DNA of 64,000 bases, from positions 1 to 64,000 of the forward strand of contig DYMK01000011.1 of assembly GCA_020721585.1 (NCBI GenBank), read 5' to 3'. This DNA comes from Sulfuricurvum sp. (GTDB taxonomy: Bacteria > Campylobacterota > Campylobacteria > Campylobacterales > Sulfurimonadaceae). The notes below the pieces were generated by a model. The model ran no database searches. It had not been told where the DNA came from and worked only from the letters and a program-made list of their open reading frames with translations. Within the stretch, counting starts at the first letter, position 1. Each line of letters starts with the position of its first letter. Positions 3,139 through 54,332 of this stretch are shown in pieces. The translations under genes were made by a program, and so were the position numbers.

Positions 3139-6060
3139 TCACGTTTCGCTATAACTGAGCTTAAGCCCCTCTTCACTCATCACAAACCCTTGAATCGCAA
3201 TTTTCCCCTCATGGACGAGGCGATGGTGCTTGGCACAAAGAGGTATCAAATTGTAGCGGTGATTCATCCCATAGTGACCGATAGCACCGTTGGCATCGGC
3301 GTGAGCTTGGGGCGTGATATGATGCACTTCATCCACCGCTTCGTCGCATAAGGCACATTTTGTGAGGTAGAGTTTAGGGTTATAACGGCTTTTTTTCTCC
3401 CGTTTGAGCATCGACGCATCATTGGTTTTGTCGGTGATACGCCCCCGAATTTCGTACGCTTTTTTTAAAAAGGTTTCGTCCATATGGAGCGATTTGGCAA
3501 ACTCCAATCCATACAACGTACTGCCACTGCCACTTTTGAGCTTACGGTCATAGACCAATTTATCGTTGATTTCATCGTAATAAACCCCCAAATGCAACAA
3601 CACAATTTCGCGCGCTTTTTGGATTTCAACAAGCGATGAGAGCTGATGCAAATGGGTCGCAAAGATAAACAAACTCCCAATCTCGCGGAGTTTGAGAATC
3701 GCACTGGCAACAATAGCAAGTGCCGATTGCGTCTCCGTACCATGACTGATCTCATCCCCTAAAATAAGGCTGTTTTCGGTCGCACGGTTAAAAATATTGC
3801 GCAATTCCAACATCTCCACCGCAAAGGTCGAAAGCCCTTTGTAGAGATTGTCTTTACTGACGATACGGGTGAGGAGTTTATCAATGGGGGAAAAGCGCAT
3901 CATCACACACGGGACAAAAAAGCCCCCTTGCGCCATCACCACTGCCAAACCGATGCTCTTCATGAGGGAGGATTTACCGCTGGAGTTGATTCCATAGAGC
4001 AATACCCCTTTGACATTTTCGCCGTTTTCGATCGTAGTGTGTTCCGCATACGTGTGCTGATCAACTGCGCCTAAAAAAAGATCGTTGGGGACAAAGATAC
4101 CGTTCTCTTCGCGGGATTCGATGAGAGGATGGCGCAATCCAACGGTCTCAATAAAGGCTTTTTCACAAGGGACAATGGTGGGGCGGACATAACGGAACTG
4201 TTTGGCACATTTGGCACCGCTTAAACTCACATCAACCACCGCTAAAAACCCAATGAGATGCTCTATCGCGTGGGAAAAACGTCGTTCGATGATCTCTAAC
4301 TCGTGAGCATACCGCTCTTTGACCTGTGCGATCATCCGCGATTTGGCTCCCGCATTTTCGATGGAGAGTTCATCCAACAACGACGAAGAGAGTTTGACCG
4401 TCGTTTTGAGTTTACGAATCTGAAAATCACGGAAAAAGTAGTGCTGCCCCTCTAGGGTAAAAAAGCTATTATAAAGGGATTCTTCAACACTCACATACCG
4501 ATTACGGGTCATCAACAAATGATACCCCTCACTCTCCAACCACCCAATGGAGGCATAGGATCCTCCTGAATCAAAAAACGAATCAATGTGCCCAATGATC
4601 CCCTCTAGTTTGGAAAGATTACGGTTTTGAAGCTGTAAAAGGGCATCGATGGAGGGGTCAATCCCCGTATTAAAGAGATTTTCATCCACCTGATCGCGTG
4701 AAAATTTGGCGCACGCATCGATGTCAAAAATCCGTCGCATCTCAGAGGCACACTGCGCACACGCTTGCGCGCTGTCGTGATCGTACGCAATCCCAAGACC
4801 CTTGGCATCCTCAAACAACGACTCTGCCGCTGTCAGTGAGGCGTAAAAATAGGACAATTCAAACGGATGCAGTTTCCCCAATTTCAACCGGCGCACGATA
4901 CGTTCTAAATCATACACCGTTTTGAGTTTGGTCTCCAAGGGGGCGATATGCTCCCCCATTTTATCGATCAGATCGTACCGTTCTTCGAGAAGTTTTACAT
5001 CGCAAATGGGATTGAGCAACCGTTCCCGCAAGAGCCGTTTTCCCATCGCCGTGGAGGTTTTATCGATAAGTTTAAGTAAGGTCATCTCATCGGCATCGCG
5101 GGAGATAATCCCCAATTGTTCGGTGGCATTGTTCCCCAAATACATATAGCGATTGGTTCCCAAAAACGTAGGTCGATTCATCTTCTCGATGATCGCAGGG
5201 TCATGGTCGATAATAACGTTAATGAGGATACACAACGCTTCGGAGGTATACGGATACCGCTCCAAATCGAGATATTCAATGGGACTTAACAAAGAGCGTA
5301 TCTGATAAATCCGTTCAAAAAGGGCATTTTGGTAATCGATCCGTAGCCGTTTGTCGTTTTGGGAAGTACGATGGTGATTATTAATCTCCAAATAACGGTT
5401 TACCTCTTCAGAATCAATCTCTTCTGAACAAAAGGTCACCACCACTTCGGAGGTTTGGTAGCTTTGCAGTAGCGTAAAAACTTCATCCAGTGCATACGTT
5501 TTGTCTTCCCGTGTTCCGTGAATTTCGTTGATGAGGGTTTTACCCGTCCCCACATCGATGGCAGCGTATCCGACCGAATAGACCCCATGGTTTTGATCGA
5601 TGAGCAGTGAGGCGATGTAATTTTCGCTTACTTCAGCGATGTAATCAAAATTCGTCCCCGGAGAGATAATATTGGCAATATAGCGACGGATATGGGGGAC
5701 AACCCCTTGCTGTCGAACCAACACGATGGTGTATTTTTTGGACTGTACCAAACGCGAAAGATACCGCTCGATAGAGACGGTCGGAACCCCCGCTAAAAGG
5801 GGATTTTGGAGCGAATTTTCGAGAATGGTCTTGTTTTTACGGGTGAGTTGGATATTGAGAAATTCGGCAACCTCTTTGGCTTTACCGATTTTCATCTCCT
5901 CATTATTGACTTCATACACCTCGAAAAACGATCCCACTTCGATGATGACGAGGGTATCAAAACCGTATTTGGCTTCGCAGAGGGCTTGGAGCTGGAAATA
6001 GATTTCGGAGAGGAGCTTGGTTTTGTCGTTGAGAATTGATCCAATCTCTTCTGTCGTCAT
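3139..6060 (-). CDS. mutS: MutS7-type mismatch repair ATPase with C-terminal HNH nuclease
   Basis: Large MutS homologue (973 aa). The N-terminal mismatch-recognition domain has GSFFEVYE near residues 45-52, matching the Phe-X-Glu wedge of MutS1-like proteins. Connector, lever and clamp domains follow. The ATPase has Walker A (INSSGKSS, near residue 690) and Walker B ([11 protein letters not shown], near 765). After about residue 900 there is an HNH domain: CALC, VHHI, then [14 protein letters not shown]. MutS fused to HNH is the MutS7 layout known from Campylobacterota, octocoral mitochondria and giant viruses. These organisms generally lack MutL, so the fused nuclease may replace the MutL nicking step (inference). 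ATG 6060 has GGAG upstream; an in-frame GTG lies two codons earlier. A TATAAT on the minus strand at 6095-6100 is a plausible promoter. Confidence 0.92.
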
Positions 6061-6121
6061 TATCACTCCGTATTATGTTAAATATCGTTTATGTATTATA
6101 TGATTTCTGTTCTAAAATTGG

Positions 6122-45310: not shown

Positions 45311-46527
45311 TAGGATCCATGCTCTACGAAGCGTTAAGTGCAATGATCGCCAATCGGATGCGTTCGTTTTTAACCATGTTGGGGATGATGATCGGCGTGG
45401 CGGCGGTCATTGTGATGTCCGCCATTGGGACGGGGGCGCAAGCAGCCATTCACGAATCGATCGCCTCTATGGGGAGCAATCTTTTCATCATCCTTTCAGG
45501 TTCCACGACCGCAGGAGGAGCGCGTATGGGAAGCGGTGCTACCCCAACTTTGACTATTGCGGATGCCCAAGCCATTGCCGATCTTCCCGCGATTGCCACC
45601 GTTGCCCCCAATGCCCCCGGAACGGCTCAAGTGATCTATGGCTCCAACAACTGGAGTACCACCATCATGGGTTCTACCCCTGATATGCTTACCATACGCA
45701 ATTGGGAGCTTGAATCGGGGTATCCCTTTAGCGATACCGATGTTCGGGGAGCGACGCGAGTAGCATTGATCGGGCAAACGGTCGCCCAAAACCTCTTTGG
45801 AGACGAAGACCCTGTAGGAAAAATTGTCCGGATCAAACAAGGTCCTTACCAAATCGTCGGAGTCTTAGCGACCAAAGGACAAAGCTTGGATGGACGAGAC
45901 CAAGACGATACCATCATCGTCCCTGTGACCACTGCACAACGCAAACTCTTTGGGTCGCAATTTCAAGGGACGGTCAAGATGATCATGGCGCAAGCCATTT
46001 CCGCTGAGGAGATGGACAATGCCGAAGAACAAATGACCCAACTGCTTCACCAACGTCACCACATTCGTGAGGGAGATGATGATGATTTTTCGATCCGAAA
46101 TTTGGCAGCGATGGCAGCTTCAGCAGCCGATACCGCCAAAATCATGTCATTGATGCTGGGGGCAATTGCCTCTATCTCTTTGCTGGTCGGGGGGATTGGG
46201 ATTATGAACATCATGCTGGTCTCCGTCACCGAACGAACCCGTGAGATTGGGATTCGTATTGCTATTGGGGCGCACGAGAGGGATATTTTGCTCCAATTTT
46301 TACTTGAAGCGTTGATGATTTCTTTGATAGGAAGCTTTATGGGGATTCTTCTGGGGGTTGTGGGGGCATTGATCGCTGAGGCATTTTTGCCCATGAAAGT
46401 AATTTTTACCGCCCAATCGATCTTGACTGCCTTTGGGGTAGCTGCCACGGTGGGGATATTTTTTGGATTCTACCCTGCGAAAAAAGCGGCAAAAATGGAA
46501 CCCATCGAGGCATTACGGTATCAATAG
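45307..46527 (+). CDS. MacB-type ABC permease (FtsX superfamily)
   Basis: 406 aa with one N-terminal membrane helix (LTMLGMMIGVAAVIVMSAIG), a periplasmic MacB_PCD domain (~45-260), then three helices (SLLVGGIGIMNIML, MISLIGSFMGILLGV, AFGVAATVGIFFGFYPA) and the ending MEPIEALRY typical of MacB. It couples ATP hydrolysis to substrate movement through MacA and TolC. The substrate is not readable (macrolides, peptides or lipids in related systems). Confidence 0.94.
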   Translation: MIGSMLYEALSAMIANRMRSFLTMLGMMIGVAAVIVMSAIGTGAQAAIHESIASMGSNLFIILSGSTTAGGARMGSGATPTLTIADAQAIADLPAIATVAPNAPGTAQVIYGSNNWSTTIMGSTPDMLTIRNWELESGYPFSDTDVRGATRVALIGQTVAQNLFGDEDPVGKIVRIKQGPYQIVGVLATKGQSLDGRDQDDTIIVPVTTAQRKLFGSQFQGTVKMIMAQAISAEEMDNAEEQMTQLLHQRHHIREGDDDDFSIRNLAAMAASAADTAKIMSLMLGAIASISLLVGGIGIMNIMLVSVTERTREIGIRIAIGAHERDILLQFLLEALMISLIGSFMGILLGVVGALIAEAFLPMKVIFTAQSILTAFGVAATVGIFFGFYPAKKAAKMEPIEALRYQ

Positions 46528-46673: not shown

Positions 46674-47651
46674 ATGGCAATTTTTAGATGCAATAAGTGT
46701 GGTTATTTACGGGAAGTTCCCAACGAATACATACAAAAAAGTTTTACGTGTCCAAATTGCAAGGAACCAGTCATAATATATGAAACGATAAAATTTGTTT
46801 CTCATGTCCTTGAACAGTATTTTTTACAAACAAAAAACTTACAAAAATACCAAAATCAATCTCAAGATTCTGTAGAAAAAAAAGAAACTATTTTTGACAA
46901 TGTTGATATTTATCATACCAATACACTCACGAACGAAATACAATATCGTTTTGCTGTTCAATGGTTTGAGAAACGAAAAATTACGGTTGAAGTGAATAAA
47001 AAATCCTTAGATACAACAGGCTTTTTTGATGAAGTTGCACTTGCATTGGGAAAAGATTTTGACTTATTAAAAGAAGTCGTCGAAAAAATTAAAAATGCCC
47101 AAAAGCGGGGGTATGTTGATATATCATTCCATCTTAAGAAAAAAAGTCAAGACGAGATTAAAAAAATAACTACTTTTTGTCGAGATTTGCATTCCTATTT
47201 TTTTCTTTCAAAATATTTTTACCAAAAAGAAGAAAAAATTATTCGTTTAAAAATTCAAACTATCCCGGCGATTGTGAATTTTTTTAACGGCGAATGGATG
47301 GAATGGCTCATTTTCATCCAAATATTAGAATTTTGTCAAACAAAAAAAATTTCGTTCTCCTGTTTGCGTAATGCACGTATTACATTTCCGAACAAAGATT
47401 TACATGAAGTGGACATTTTCTTTTTACTCAACGGATCAATTCCTGTGTATATTGAATGCAAATCAGGAGAATTCCGCCCAGATATTGACAAATATATGAC
47501 ATTACGCAAAAGAGTGGATATTGATAAAAAGAATTTTTTAATTTGCGCTCTTGGACTGACTCAAAAAGAGTGTGATGGATTAAGTGGTATGTTTGGATTA
47601 ACTTTCGTTAATGAAAAAAACATTTTGCAACATATTGAAACAATCATATAA
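46674..47651 (+). CDS. Zinc-ribbon protein with C-terminal PD-(D/E)xK nuclease domain (DUF1887/Card1-like)
   Basis: 325 aa, strongly AT-rich. The N-terminal zinc ribbon has CNKCG and CPNC (Cys6, 9, 26, 29). A middle region (~75-200) of mixed helices and strands is not recognised. The C-terminal ~120 residues read GEWMEWLIF (Glu210), then HEVDIFF (Glu245/Asp247) and YIECKSG (Glu261, Lys263). This order of GxWxE, ExD and ECK matches the restriction-like nuclease domain at the C-terminus of DUF1887/Card1/Can2 proteins. No CARF-type sensor is evident; the ribbon and middle region would be the sensor. A defence role is inference from domain and AT-rich context. Confidence 0.75.
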   Translation: MAIFRCNKCGYLREVPNEYIQKSFTCPNCKEPVIIYETIKFVSHVLEQYFLQTKNLQKYQNQSQDSVEKKETIFDNVDIYHTNTLTNEIQYRFAVQWFEKRKITVEVNKKSLDTTGFFDEVALALGKDFDLLKEVVEKIKNAQKRGYVDISFHLKKKSQDEIKKITTFCRDLHSYFFLSKYFYQKEEKIIRLKIQTIPAIVNFFNGEWMEWLIFIQILEFCQTKKISFSCLRNARITFPNKDLHEVDIFFLLNGSIPVYIECKSGEFRPDIDKYMTLRKRVDIDKKNFLICALGLTQKECDGLSGMFGLTFVNEKNILQHIETII

Positions 47652-47733: not shown

Positions 47734-48609
47734 TTAATACACAGGACGAACACTATCGCCTACTTCGACGACATTATTTTGCCCTTGATTGTCCAATACG
47801 ATCCACGCATTATGGGGCATAACTTGATTGGAAACACGTCCTGTAGCACTTTGTAAAGTGTCCACGATACGTCCTTCTAAGGTATTATTAAACGTATTGG
47901 CTTTGTAGAGAAGCATTCTTTGTTCCGCCCCAATCCCCTCTAAACTTCCCATATTAATCATAAAAATGGCCTCTTTTTCGTTATCAATCGCCACTTTTTT
48001 AGCCACAATCATCCCATTGGGCATCATCGTGTTTGCCATATCCCGTAGTAAACGATCCAACGTATTTTGGAGTGATTCCAAATATTTTTCACGGGGTACC
48101 TCAGAAGCATAATCCCCATACGTCGTATACGAAAGGGAGGTAGAAGCCTCAAAATATTTGGGTGATCCCCCCTGTGCCAAACTCAAGGTCGCCGTGACAG
48201 AATTGGTAAGATAATAACTCCAATACGATTGGGTGTAATGCCCTCTTCTTTTGGATTTGGGTGGAGGGGAAATGTACCGCGAGGGGGTAAAGGTTTTGGT
48301 CGAAGCCAAATTATGCAATGCCAAATGGAGTCGATCCCCCCTATAATCATCCAACTGAAAAATATGGGCGCGCTCGTTATCCGCCAAAAAGTAACTCTGC
48401 ATCGCTGCGGCGTATGAATTCCATGCCCCTGCATCAATGGTCATACTGGGACTTAATTTCGGGGAAATAACACGGGTATTGAGATTGTTTTGAGAAACAT
48501 GCGAAGGGAGAGGAACATCACGAAAGCGGCTTAAATCCACTTTAGTCGCACAACCACTTAGCCCCACCATCATACTTACAAGAATTAACGATAAGACCAT
48601 CCGCTTCAT
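47734..48609 (-). CDS. Outer-membrane-type lipoprotein of unknown function
   Basis: 291 aa with a lipoprotein signal (LSLILVSMMVGLSGC, lipobox LSGC at ~16-19). The mature protein is mixed alpha/beta; the C-terminal third (INMGSLEGIGAEQRMLLY...GRIVDTLQ...NAWIVLDN...VEVGDSVRP) looks like a small beta-barrel/OB-type module seen in several envelope proteins. I do not recognise the family. It lies 17 nt downstream of ycaO on the same strand, so both may share a transcript. Confidence 0.85.
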   Translation of the reverse strand: MKRMVLSLILVSMMVGLSGCATKVDLSRFRDVPLPSHVSQNNLNTRVISPKLSPSMTIDAGAWNSYAAAMQSYFLADNERAHIFQLDDYRGDRLHLALHNLASTKTFTPSRYISPPPKSKRRGHYTQSYWSYYLTNSVTATLSLAQGGSPKYFEASTSLSYTTYGDYASEVPREKYLESLQNTLDRLLRDMANTMMPNGMIVAKKVAIDNEKEAIFMINMGSLEGIGAEQRMLLYKANTFNNTLEGRIVDTLQSATGRVSNQVMPHNAWIVLDNQGQNNVVEVGDSVRPVY

Positions 48610-54175: not shown

Positions 54176-54306
54176 AAACCACCCCGCCTTACAGGCACCC
54201 CTCCAAAGGAGGGGAATGGAGAGAAAAATTCCCCTCCTTTGGAGGGGTGGCAGACGAAGTCTGGCGGGGTGGTCGCATCCTCTCAAAAACGAAGTCTGGC
54301 GGGGTG
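54176..54306. repeat. Nested palindrome cluster upstream of DUF559 gene
   Basis: Layered structure. Outer 11-bp arms: ACCACCCCGCC (54176-54186) against 54261-54271. Two inner hairpins with CCCCTCC/GGAGGGG arms and a 3-nt loop: 54196-54212 (loop AAA) and 54229-54245 (loop TTT), each in a 24-nt block inverted relative to the other (22 of 24 match). A 20-bp direct repeat, ACGAAGTCTGGCGGGGTGGT, at 54252-54271 and 54287-54306. The composition is GC-rich compared with the flanks. It ends 26 nt before the DUF559 ATG, and that reading frame is open back through part of the repeats. Confidence 0.85.
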
Positions 54307-54332
54307 GTTATATCCTTAAAAGAGAAACAACC

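Follow-up and report, generated by a model that had tools for sequence, protein, structure and literature searches.

A single gene in a 64,000-nucleotide stretch of Sulfuricurvum sp. DNA raises the question of how the nuclease half of a CRISPR effector can be used without the CARF domain that normally accompanies it. This whole stretch is called the window in the following. The preliminary description of the gene, made from the sequence alone, read its product as a zinc-ribbon protein with a Card1/Can2-like nuclease domain, no CARF domain and an unrecognised middle domain of about 120 amino acids. The gene is an intact open reading frame of 325 codons with an ATG start, and the parts of its product are collected in Table 1. 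Locus and genome numbers (L and G, with contigs C) are our own.

Table 1. Features of the zinc-ribbon nuclease gene and its product, in window positions.
Feature	Residues	Position	Strand	Basis
Zinc-ribbon/winged-helix/PD-(D/E)xK gene	325 aa	46674..47651 (incl. stop)	+	ORF listing, full-length homologues, dN/dS
Zinc ribbon, ligands C6, C9, C26, C29	1-36	46674..46781	+	Alignment columns, generic zinc-ribbon matches
Long helix, coiled-coil-like	38-62	46785..46859	+	AlphaFold2 model
Helix and strand	88-112	46935..47009	+	Model, whole-model alignment; VC1899 domain limits as given in PMC1462988
Winged-helix domain	113-205	47010..47288	+	Isolated prediction of 76-205, profile alignment
PD-(D/E)xK nuclease core	206-325	47289..47648	+	Profile matches to Can2/VC1899, Foldseek
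GEWME motif (G206, W208, E210)	206-210	47289..47303	+	G, W and E in 48/48 rows
EVD motif (E245-x-D247)	245-247	47406..47414	+	Aligned with Can2 E276/D278; 48/48 rows
ECK motif, ExK of the active site (E261, K263)	261-263	47454..47462	+	E and K in 48/48 rows

The C-terminal domain is a Card1/Can2-type nuclease

Conservation of the active site was assessed in an alignment of 51 extracted rows, 48 of which reach this region. The seven residues of the three motifs named in Table 1 are kept in every one of these 48. Can2 E276 and D278, the counterparts of E245 and D247, are catalytic residues and were mutated in the experiments of PMC7969007 that concern them. A profile of nine members, compared with the PDB, found Can2 (7bdv, E = 1.4e-4), VC1899 (3.5e-3) and other DUF1887 chains. 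AlphaFold2, run from a 15-row alignment, predicted a PD-(D/E)xK fold in a model with a mean pLDDT of 89.4 and a pTM of 0.73. Searching the PDB with Foldseek returned 17 chains at E ≤ 0.001, all of them Can2, Card1, Cdn1 or VC1899 (best 6.1e-10, VC1899). No viral homologue of the fold was found at E ≤ 0.001.

Family models gave a similar picture. The PADLOC model CARF_PDDEXK matches all 11 members of our first family alignment (best E 6.1e-14) and the window protein in a single-sequence search (4e-8). Pfam Card1_endonuc (PF09002) also matches 11 of 11 members at E ≤ 1, with a best value of 1.5e-7. The window protein itself reaches 17.2 bits, below the curated cut-off of 26.4, which is passed by the orthologues in G564, G565, G566, G567 (C7), G568 and G569; the orthologue in G563 stays below it at 21.6 bits, and those in G264 and G277 have no match. 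With the GEWME, EVD and ECK order in place and both profile and fold matches well beyond chance, the assignment of the nuclease domain holds.

Other candidates were rejected. Pfam matches to the Ligase Pab1020 C-terminal domain, PIN_6 and CoiA_N (E 0.002-0.02) each recur in at most two of the 11 members at E ≤ 1 and were taken as chance, and a likeness of the GxWxE stretch to PDB 1cfr, presumably a Cfr10I-like enzyme, was too weak (E 0.28 and 0.67). Six further PF09002 matches in the window's own genome (G000) belong to a different coiled-coil nuclease and do not count as relatives. These (L030, L032 and L034-L037, on six contigs) are open frames of 184-221 aa for a coiled-coil PD-(D/E)xK-like protein; L030, the one of the six that was read, opens with repeated short coil motifs.

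The middle region corresponds to the winged helix of VC1899

The closest known arrangement is that of VC1899 (PDB 1xmx), an orphan DUF1887 protein of Vibrio cholerae, which has the same winged helix and PD-(D/E)xK nuclease in the same order. PMC1462988 assigns residues 1-137 of VC1899 to a Rossmann-like domain, 161-249 to a winged HTH domain and 250-383, together with 138-156, to an endonuclease domain. Alignment of the window model with VIA-align gave Z 15.3 for VC1899 (rmsd 4.3, 221 residues), 17.1 for Cdn1 (3.5, 230), 16.2 for Can2 (3.8, 205) and 12.6 for Card1. In these alignments residues 67-325 of the model span 133-377 of VC1899, 135-364 of Can2 and 143-399 of Cdn1.

Residues 76-205 were also predicted alone, with a mean pLDDT of 82.1. 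VC1899 163-248 was among the top tied rows for this isolated model (VIA-align Z 8.6, rmsd 2.7, 80 residues), and a Foldseek search with it returned nothing at E ≤ 0.001. In an hhalign profile comparison (P 81, E 1.2e-5), residues 140-294 align to positions 155-310 in CARF nucleases. Judged by its position in the model, the segment 88-112 would be the counterpart of VC1899 138-156 and thus part of the nuclease fold, with a putative residue-by-residue equivalence. Because the VC1899 match, the profile alignment and the whole-model alignment agree, we regard everything after about residue 85 as an ordinary post-CARF half.

Residues 75-200 had been proposed as a possible sensor. A novel sensor fold is ruled out here, since the region aligns to the VC1899 winged helix both alone and within the full model; the domain that had not been recognised is the winged helix that VC1899 has between CARF and nuclease. 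No CARF or SAVED folds were among the matches listed for it. Ribosomal protein S8 scored Z 8.8-9.0 (best chain, 68-72 residues), tied with VC1899, and the CodY DNA-binding domain 7.8. As these scores are tied with or near the level of common arrangements, we make no claim of RNA binding for the middle domain.

A zinc ribbon and a helix stand in place of the CARF domain

None of the Pfam matches of the window protein is a CARF model, and the same Pfam models do find CARF_Card1 in two other proteins of our set (L028 and L079). In the best structural alignments the model enters no earlier than residue 67 and the known chain no earlier than residue 133, the exception being a Cdn1 row (8z4i_B) with a chain range from 51. 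The absence of CARF that had been read from the sequence is therefore borne out. What precedes the nuclease half is about 85 residues, a four-cysteine CxxC...CxxC ribbon and one helix, followed by a linker of low confidence (pLDDT < 50 at residues 63-70) and a continuous folded half from about residue 88 to 325. Cysteine occupies the four ribbon columns in 39, 37, 39 and 41 of the 51 aligned rows, and the best family matches of the ribbon are generic zinc ribbons (FmdB-like and RNA polymerase subunit P-like), in agreement with the zinc ribbon first noted. Where the domain limits in PMC1462988 give VC1899 an N-terminal Rossmann/CARF domain (1-137), the window protein has the roughly 80-residue zinc ribbon plus helix. 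Our data indicate that the CARF domain was exchanged for these two elements.

The N-module also occurs elsewhere. Four proteins of 217-382 aa from genomes of Thiomargarita's order (L155 4946-5677, L156 4916-5569, L157 3465-4613 and L158 4890-5615) carry the same kind of zinc ribbon plus coil, a hydrophobic, probably membrane-spanning stretch and a further coil. Their N-module is a lead to the partner or location of the zinc-ribbon nuclease. One family member of 504 aa (L160 4583-6097, G934:C107) carries a pair of zinc ribbons and, ahead of its nuclease half, a long linker rich in Pro, Ser and Thr.

Compared with Can2, Card1 and Cdn1 (7bdv, 6wxw and 9u49), the window protein shares the nuclease fold and the catalytic ExD/ExK residues; unlike them, it has no CARF that we could find and no known cyclic oligoadenylate site, and it was not found at CRISPR loci. 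The sections of PMC7969007 that treat VC1899 place it outside type III CRISPR loci and describe it as not regulated by cA4, and this orphan shows that Card1-type nucleases outside CRISPR exist. PADLOC model PDLC01131, described as 'PDDEXK_1, same family as the one fused to CARF (PDB; 1XMX)', matches 6 of 11 members (best 1.1e-6), which shows that its curators already list a nuclease of the Card1-type family apart from CARF; the description mentions neither zinc ribbon nor winged helix. We found no description of a zinc-ribbon version of the Card1-type nuclease in the literature searched, with the 2020 CARF classification lying outside that search.

Other non-CARF partners occur on the same nuclease half. 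Locus L075 (G097:C1, ORF 649-1926) encodes an N4/N6 DNA methylase fused to it, with the methylase instead of the zinc ribbon; related pieces are found at L069 and L080. Since residues 222-425 of this protein share 65% identity (216 columns) with the C-terminus of the AAA-CARF-nuclease protein L079, it probably represents a separate and more recent swap of the sensor for a methylase. Distant members without zinc ribbon (L011, L012 and L041) carry helical or LRV-like N-termini on the nuclease half.

The family is patchily distributed and under purifying selection

Relatives were found at seven loci, in Desulfobulbaceae, Desulfosediminicola, Electrothrix, Thiomargarita and bacterium UASB270. Within the genus of the window, 1 of 37 genomes carries the gene, namely the window's own. 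Two further carriers were found in the Campylobacterota, G264 with a full-length copy and G277 with one in pieces. A search of 397 genomes matched five (G000, G264 and G277, with the distant G135 and G406), and a search of 398 genomes matched ten, of which the same three zinc-ribbon members and the distant G135 were kept. A search of 345 genomes, which found relatives in Desulfobacterota, gave ten matches, of which three are zinc-ribbon members (G565, G821 and G908) and one is distant (G889), the rest being false. Strong matches are far more frequent in the order of the Thiomargarita host, at 30 of 42 genomes; at E ≤ 0.001 the count was 35, and five (G916, G917, G918, G935 and G936) were dropped as N-module-only or weak nuclease matches. 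The family of the Electrothrix host has the gene in 11 of 73 genomes, one of them partial (G964), out of 12 first listed. No match to the zinc-ribbon nuclease was found in the viral contigs, plasmids and phages searched.

Several matches were dropped as false: L018 and L020-L022, PNPase-like by their sequence (profile 86-194, E 2e-4 to 7e-4), the generic zinc-ribbon matches L042-L046, and the other nuclease-like proteins L019 and L047. A methylase fusion (L017) was also dropped.

In three Electrothrix-group pairs, dN and dS were 0.085/1.19, 0.109/1.47 and 0.115/1.57, a ratio of about 0.07 that is approximate because dS is near saturation; the pair of the window gene and L002 is saturated and gives no ratio. 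That the zinc-ribbon nucleases are a real family under purifying selection is strongly supported.

The gene is solitary, AT-rich and horizontally acquired

The window gene lies between a MacB-like ABC transporter gene, which ends at 46527 upstream, and a convergent lipoprotein-like gene at 47734-48609 downstream (neighbours are named here and below from their own sequences). Its GC content is 0.30 compared to 0.46 in the flanks, and its GC3 is 0.25 compared to a median of 0.48 for the neighbours. The same holds across loci: GC is below that of the flanks in 12 of 12 zinc-ribbon loci of the first set and in 29 of 30 further ones (41 of 42 together), and for GC3, 13 of 13 and then 29 of 30 further loci lie under the median of their neighbours. 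Among outgroup loci, gene GC is lower in two of three. Low GC is thus a trait of the family and not just of the window copy.

No tRNA, clear flanking repeat or terminal repeat was seen at the window gene, an Rfam search around it gave no match, and a promoter and terminator scan performed no better than on shuffled sequence. A clean empty site was not obtained from genomes of the same genus: a search with the lipoprotein gene next to it hit 8 of 41 of them, and the two best other genomes (L060 and L061) carry a different gene 3′ of it. Of the AT-rich single-gene insert described at first, the lone, AT-rich gene stands; a tRNA or clear flanking repeat was not seen, and the low GC is family-wide.

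Among 351 neighbours of 48 loci (ORFs of at least 90 aa were compared), no gene family recurs across all loci. Response regulators of a generic kind, at 7 loci, and ABC transporters, at 5, form the largest clusters. Local neighbours exist in the Desulfobulbaceae group, with a lipoprotein gene at six loci and topoisomerase III at four, and a YjgA-like gene stands beside three Electrothrix-type loci. A consistent placement of the orthologues in housekeeping operons, which would have told against the first reading, was not seen in this survey.

A 42-row tree joins the window protein to L002 and L149 from the Desulfobulbaceae group (support 100/99); this cluster belongs to a set of 16 rows (99/97) that are mostly Desulfobacterota. 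Several inner branches of the tree are weak. The G264 copy groups with other Desulfobacterota (100/99) and is placed in the same way by a smaller tree. Since the gene is AT-rich in nearly all loci, has no family-wide partner and groups with the Desulfobulbaceae, its horizontal acquisition, from or near this family, is strongly supported.

One locus (L142, G930:C168) holds two family members in tandem, at 3844-4944 and 4980-6098 and about 35 bases apart, which are sisters in the tree (92/84). Copies at L052, L057 and L148 are broken or split. Tandem and broken copies of a solitary, AT-rich, transferred gene are what a toxin-like or selfish nuclease, restrained by an unlinked or cis-acting inhibitor, might leave behind. 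On the other hand, no partner gene recurs among the ORFs of at least 90 aa, and the window copy has neither terminal repeats nor a tRNA, so that we hold a toxin-like or selfish role to be improbable.

A PADLOC defence gene lies within 5 kb at 3 of 13 loci, or at four if a doubtful PDC-S62 match (L051) is included. This uncontrolled count, from ten hand-picked proteins with a check over 76, is not taken as enrichment. The three neighbours are an AriA/AbiLi-like ATPase (L003), a type II R-M pair (L008) and a ThsA-like SIR2 protein (L053). At L003 (5742-7522), the ATPase and a second protein without PADLOC match lie directly downstream of the zinc-ribbon nuclease and are possibly a separate two-gene defence unit. 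PADLOC also paired topoisomerase III with DpdF, a DNA polymerase with RTasPolA and ArsR-like proteins with Csa3; we took these hits as spurious.

No clear tie of the family to type III CRISPR

Consistent with the preliminary description, no CRISPR-like array was found within the window. Apart from one 28-nt pair at 54254-54316 with 35-base spacing, too few copies for an array, no close direct repeat was found there, and Tandem Repeats Finder reported two short rows. Clear Cas10 matches (at least 80 bits) are present in 15 of 44 host genomes and absent at this threshold from the other 29; weaker matches may be GGDEF-type relatives, and many hosts are in many contigs, so that incomplete genomes limit the count. 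Neither a CARF nor a cas gene recurs beside the zinc-ribbon nuclease at the 48 loci. The window's own genome has a Cas10/Cmr2-like palm protein of 56.5 bits (L099, G000:C14:1-1228), which is cut by the contig end and lies amid housekeeping-like genes; no direct repeats of at least 22 nt within 120 bases of each other were found in the 12 kb around it. Genome G567 combines two zinc-ribbon-clade copies with a CARF nuclease that has a Cas10-like palm nearby.

By these counts the family does not appear to depend on type III CRISPR. The zinc-ribbon nuclease could still serve type III immunity in trans, with a separate CARF or Cas10 protein recruiting it, and the 15 hosts with clear Cas10, the palm protein of the window genome and the combination in G567 would fit such an accessory. 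We consider it very improbable given the 29 hosts without a clear Cas10 match, the lack of recurring adjacent CARF or cas genes and the lack of such repeats around the window genome's own Cas10-like gene.

Possible function and implications

Tentatively, and with somewhat less than even confidence, we read the protein as a metal-dependent, stand-alone nuclease that works independently of cyclic oligoadenylate and is probably switched on by another signal; most likely it is encoded by a lone mobile gene that acts in restriction-like or abortive defence. Can2, Card1 and Cdn1 are described, in the structural accounts of PMC7969007, PMC12825302 and PMC9704534, as dimers held by CARF in which the ligand joins two nuclease domains and completes the active site. 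By analogy, the window nuclease would also work as a dimer. With CARF missing, another contact must bring the nuclease domains together, and the helix after the zinc ribbon is a natural candidate; it would pair the subunits in place of the CARF dimer. The trigger, either a nucleic acid or a protein partner, may be bound by the zinc ribbon, and DNA may be held by the winged helix. The outcome would be nicking or degradation of DNA and/or RNA.

A defence role is plausible, given the horizontal transfer, the patchy distribution in Campylobacterota and Desulfobacterota, the AT-rich and solitary gene and the invariant active site. Against it stand the few defence neighbours (three or four of 13 loci), the lack of any match in the plasmid, phage and viral collections searched, and the presence of the gene in 30 of the 42 genomes from the order of Thiomargarita, which together with the stable lipoprotein and topoisomerase III neighbours would also fit a constitutive role.

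The main rival is accordingly a genome-maintenance nuclease: it would process DNA (or RNA) constitutively, its zinc ribbon would direct it to DNA or to a repair or replication partner, and its transfer to a few Campylobacterota would be incidental. This explanation accounts well for the frequency of 30 in 42, the strong purifying selection, the conserved place in Desulfobulbaceae-group genomes near the lipoprotein gene at six loci and topoisomerase III at four, and the scarcity of defence neighbours. It does not readily explain why the gene was not found in 36 other genomes of the genus and in nearly all sampled Campylobacterota, why it is AT-rich in 41 of 42 loci and why its positions differ between clades; in addition, the characterised relatives are immune effectors in the accounts given by PMC7969007 and PMC12825302. 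Genome maintenance therefore appears to us a serious explanation, and on the whole an unlikely one.

The reading as a solitary defence nuclease can be taken further, to a separate, CARF-free branch of Can2/Card1 in which a zinc-ribbon/coiled-coil module in the sensor's position makes a solitary immune effector that responds at the membrane to a protein or nucleic acid instead of cyclic oligoadenylate, and in which the nuclease half is a general module that accepts different sensors. In this full form we rate the proposal as unlikely. If our reading is right, the nuclease half of an intensively studied CRISPR effector would have been re-wired repeatedly, to a zinc ribbon, a DNA methylase and helical N-termini, and would be a portable killing or restricting module. 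It would also raise the question of what switches on a Card1-type nuclease without binding of cyclic oligoadenylate. The same reading suggests that defence surveys based on CARF would overlook a family carried by the majority of the genomes sampled from one order of sulfur bacteria.
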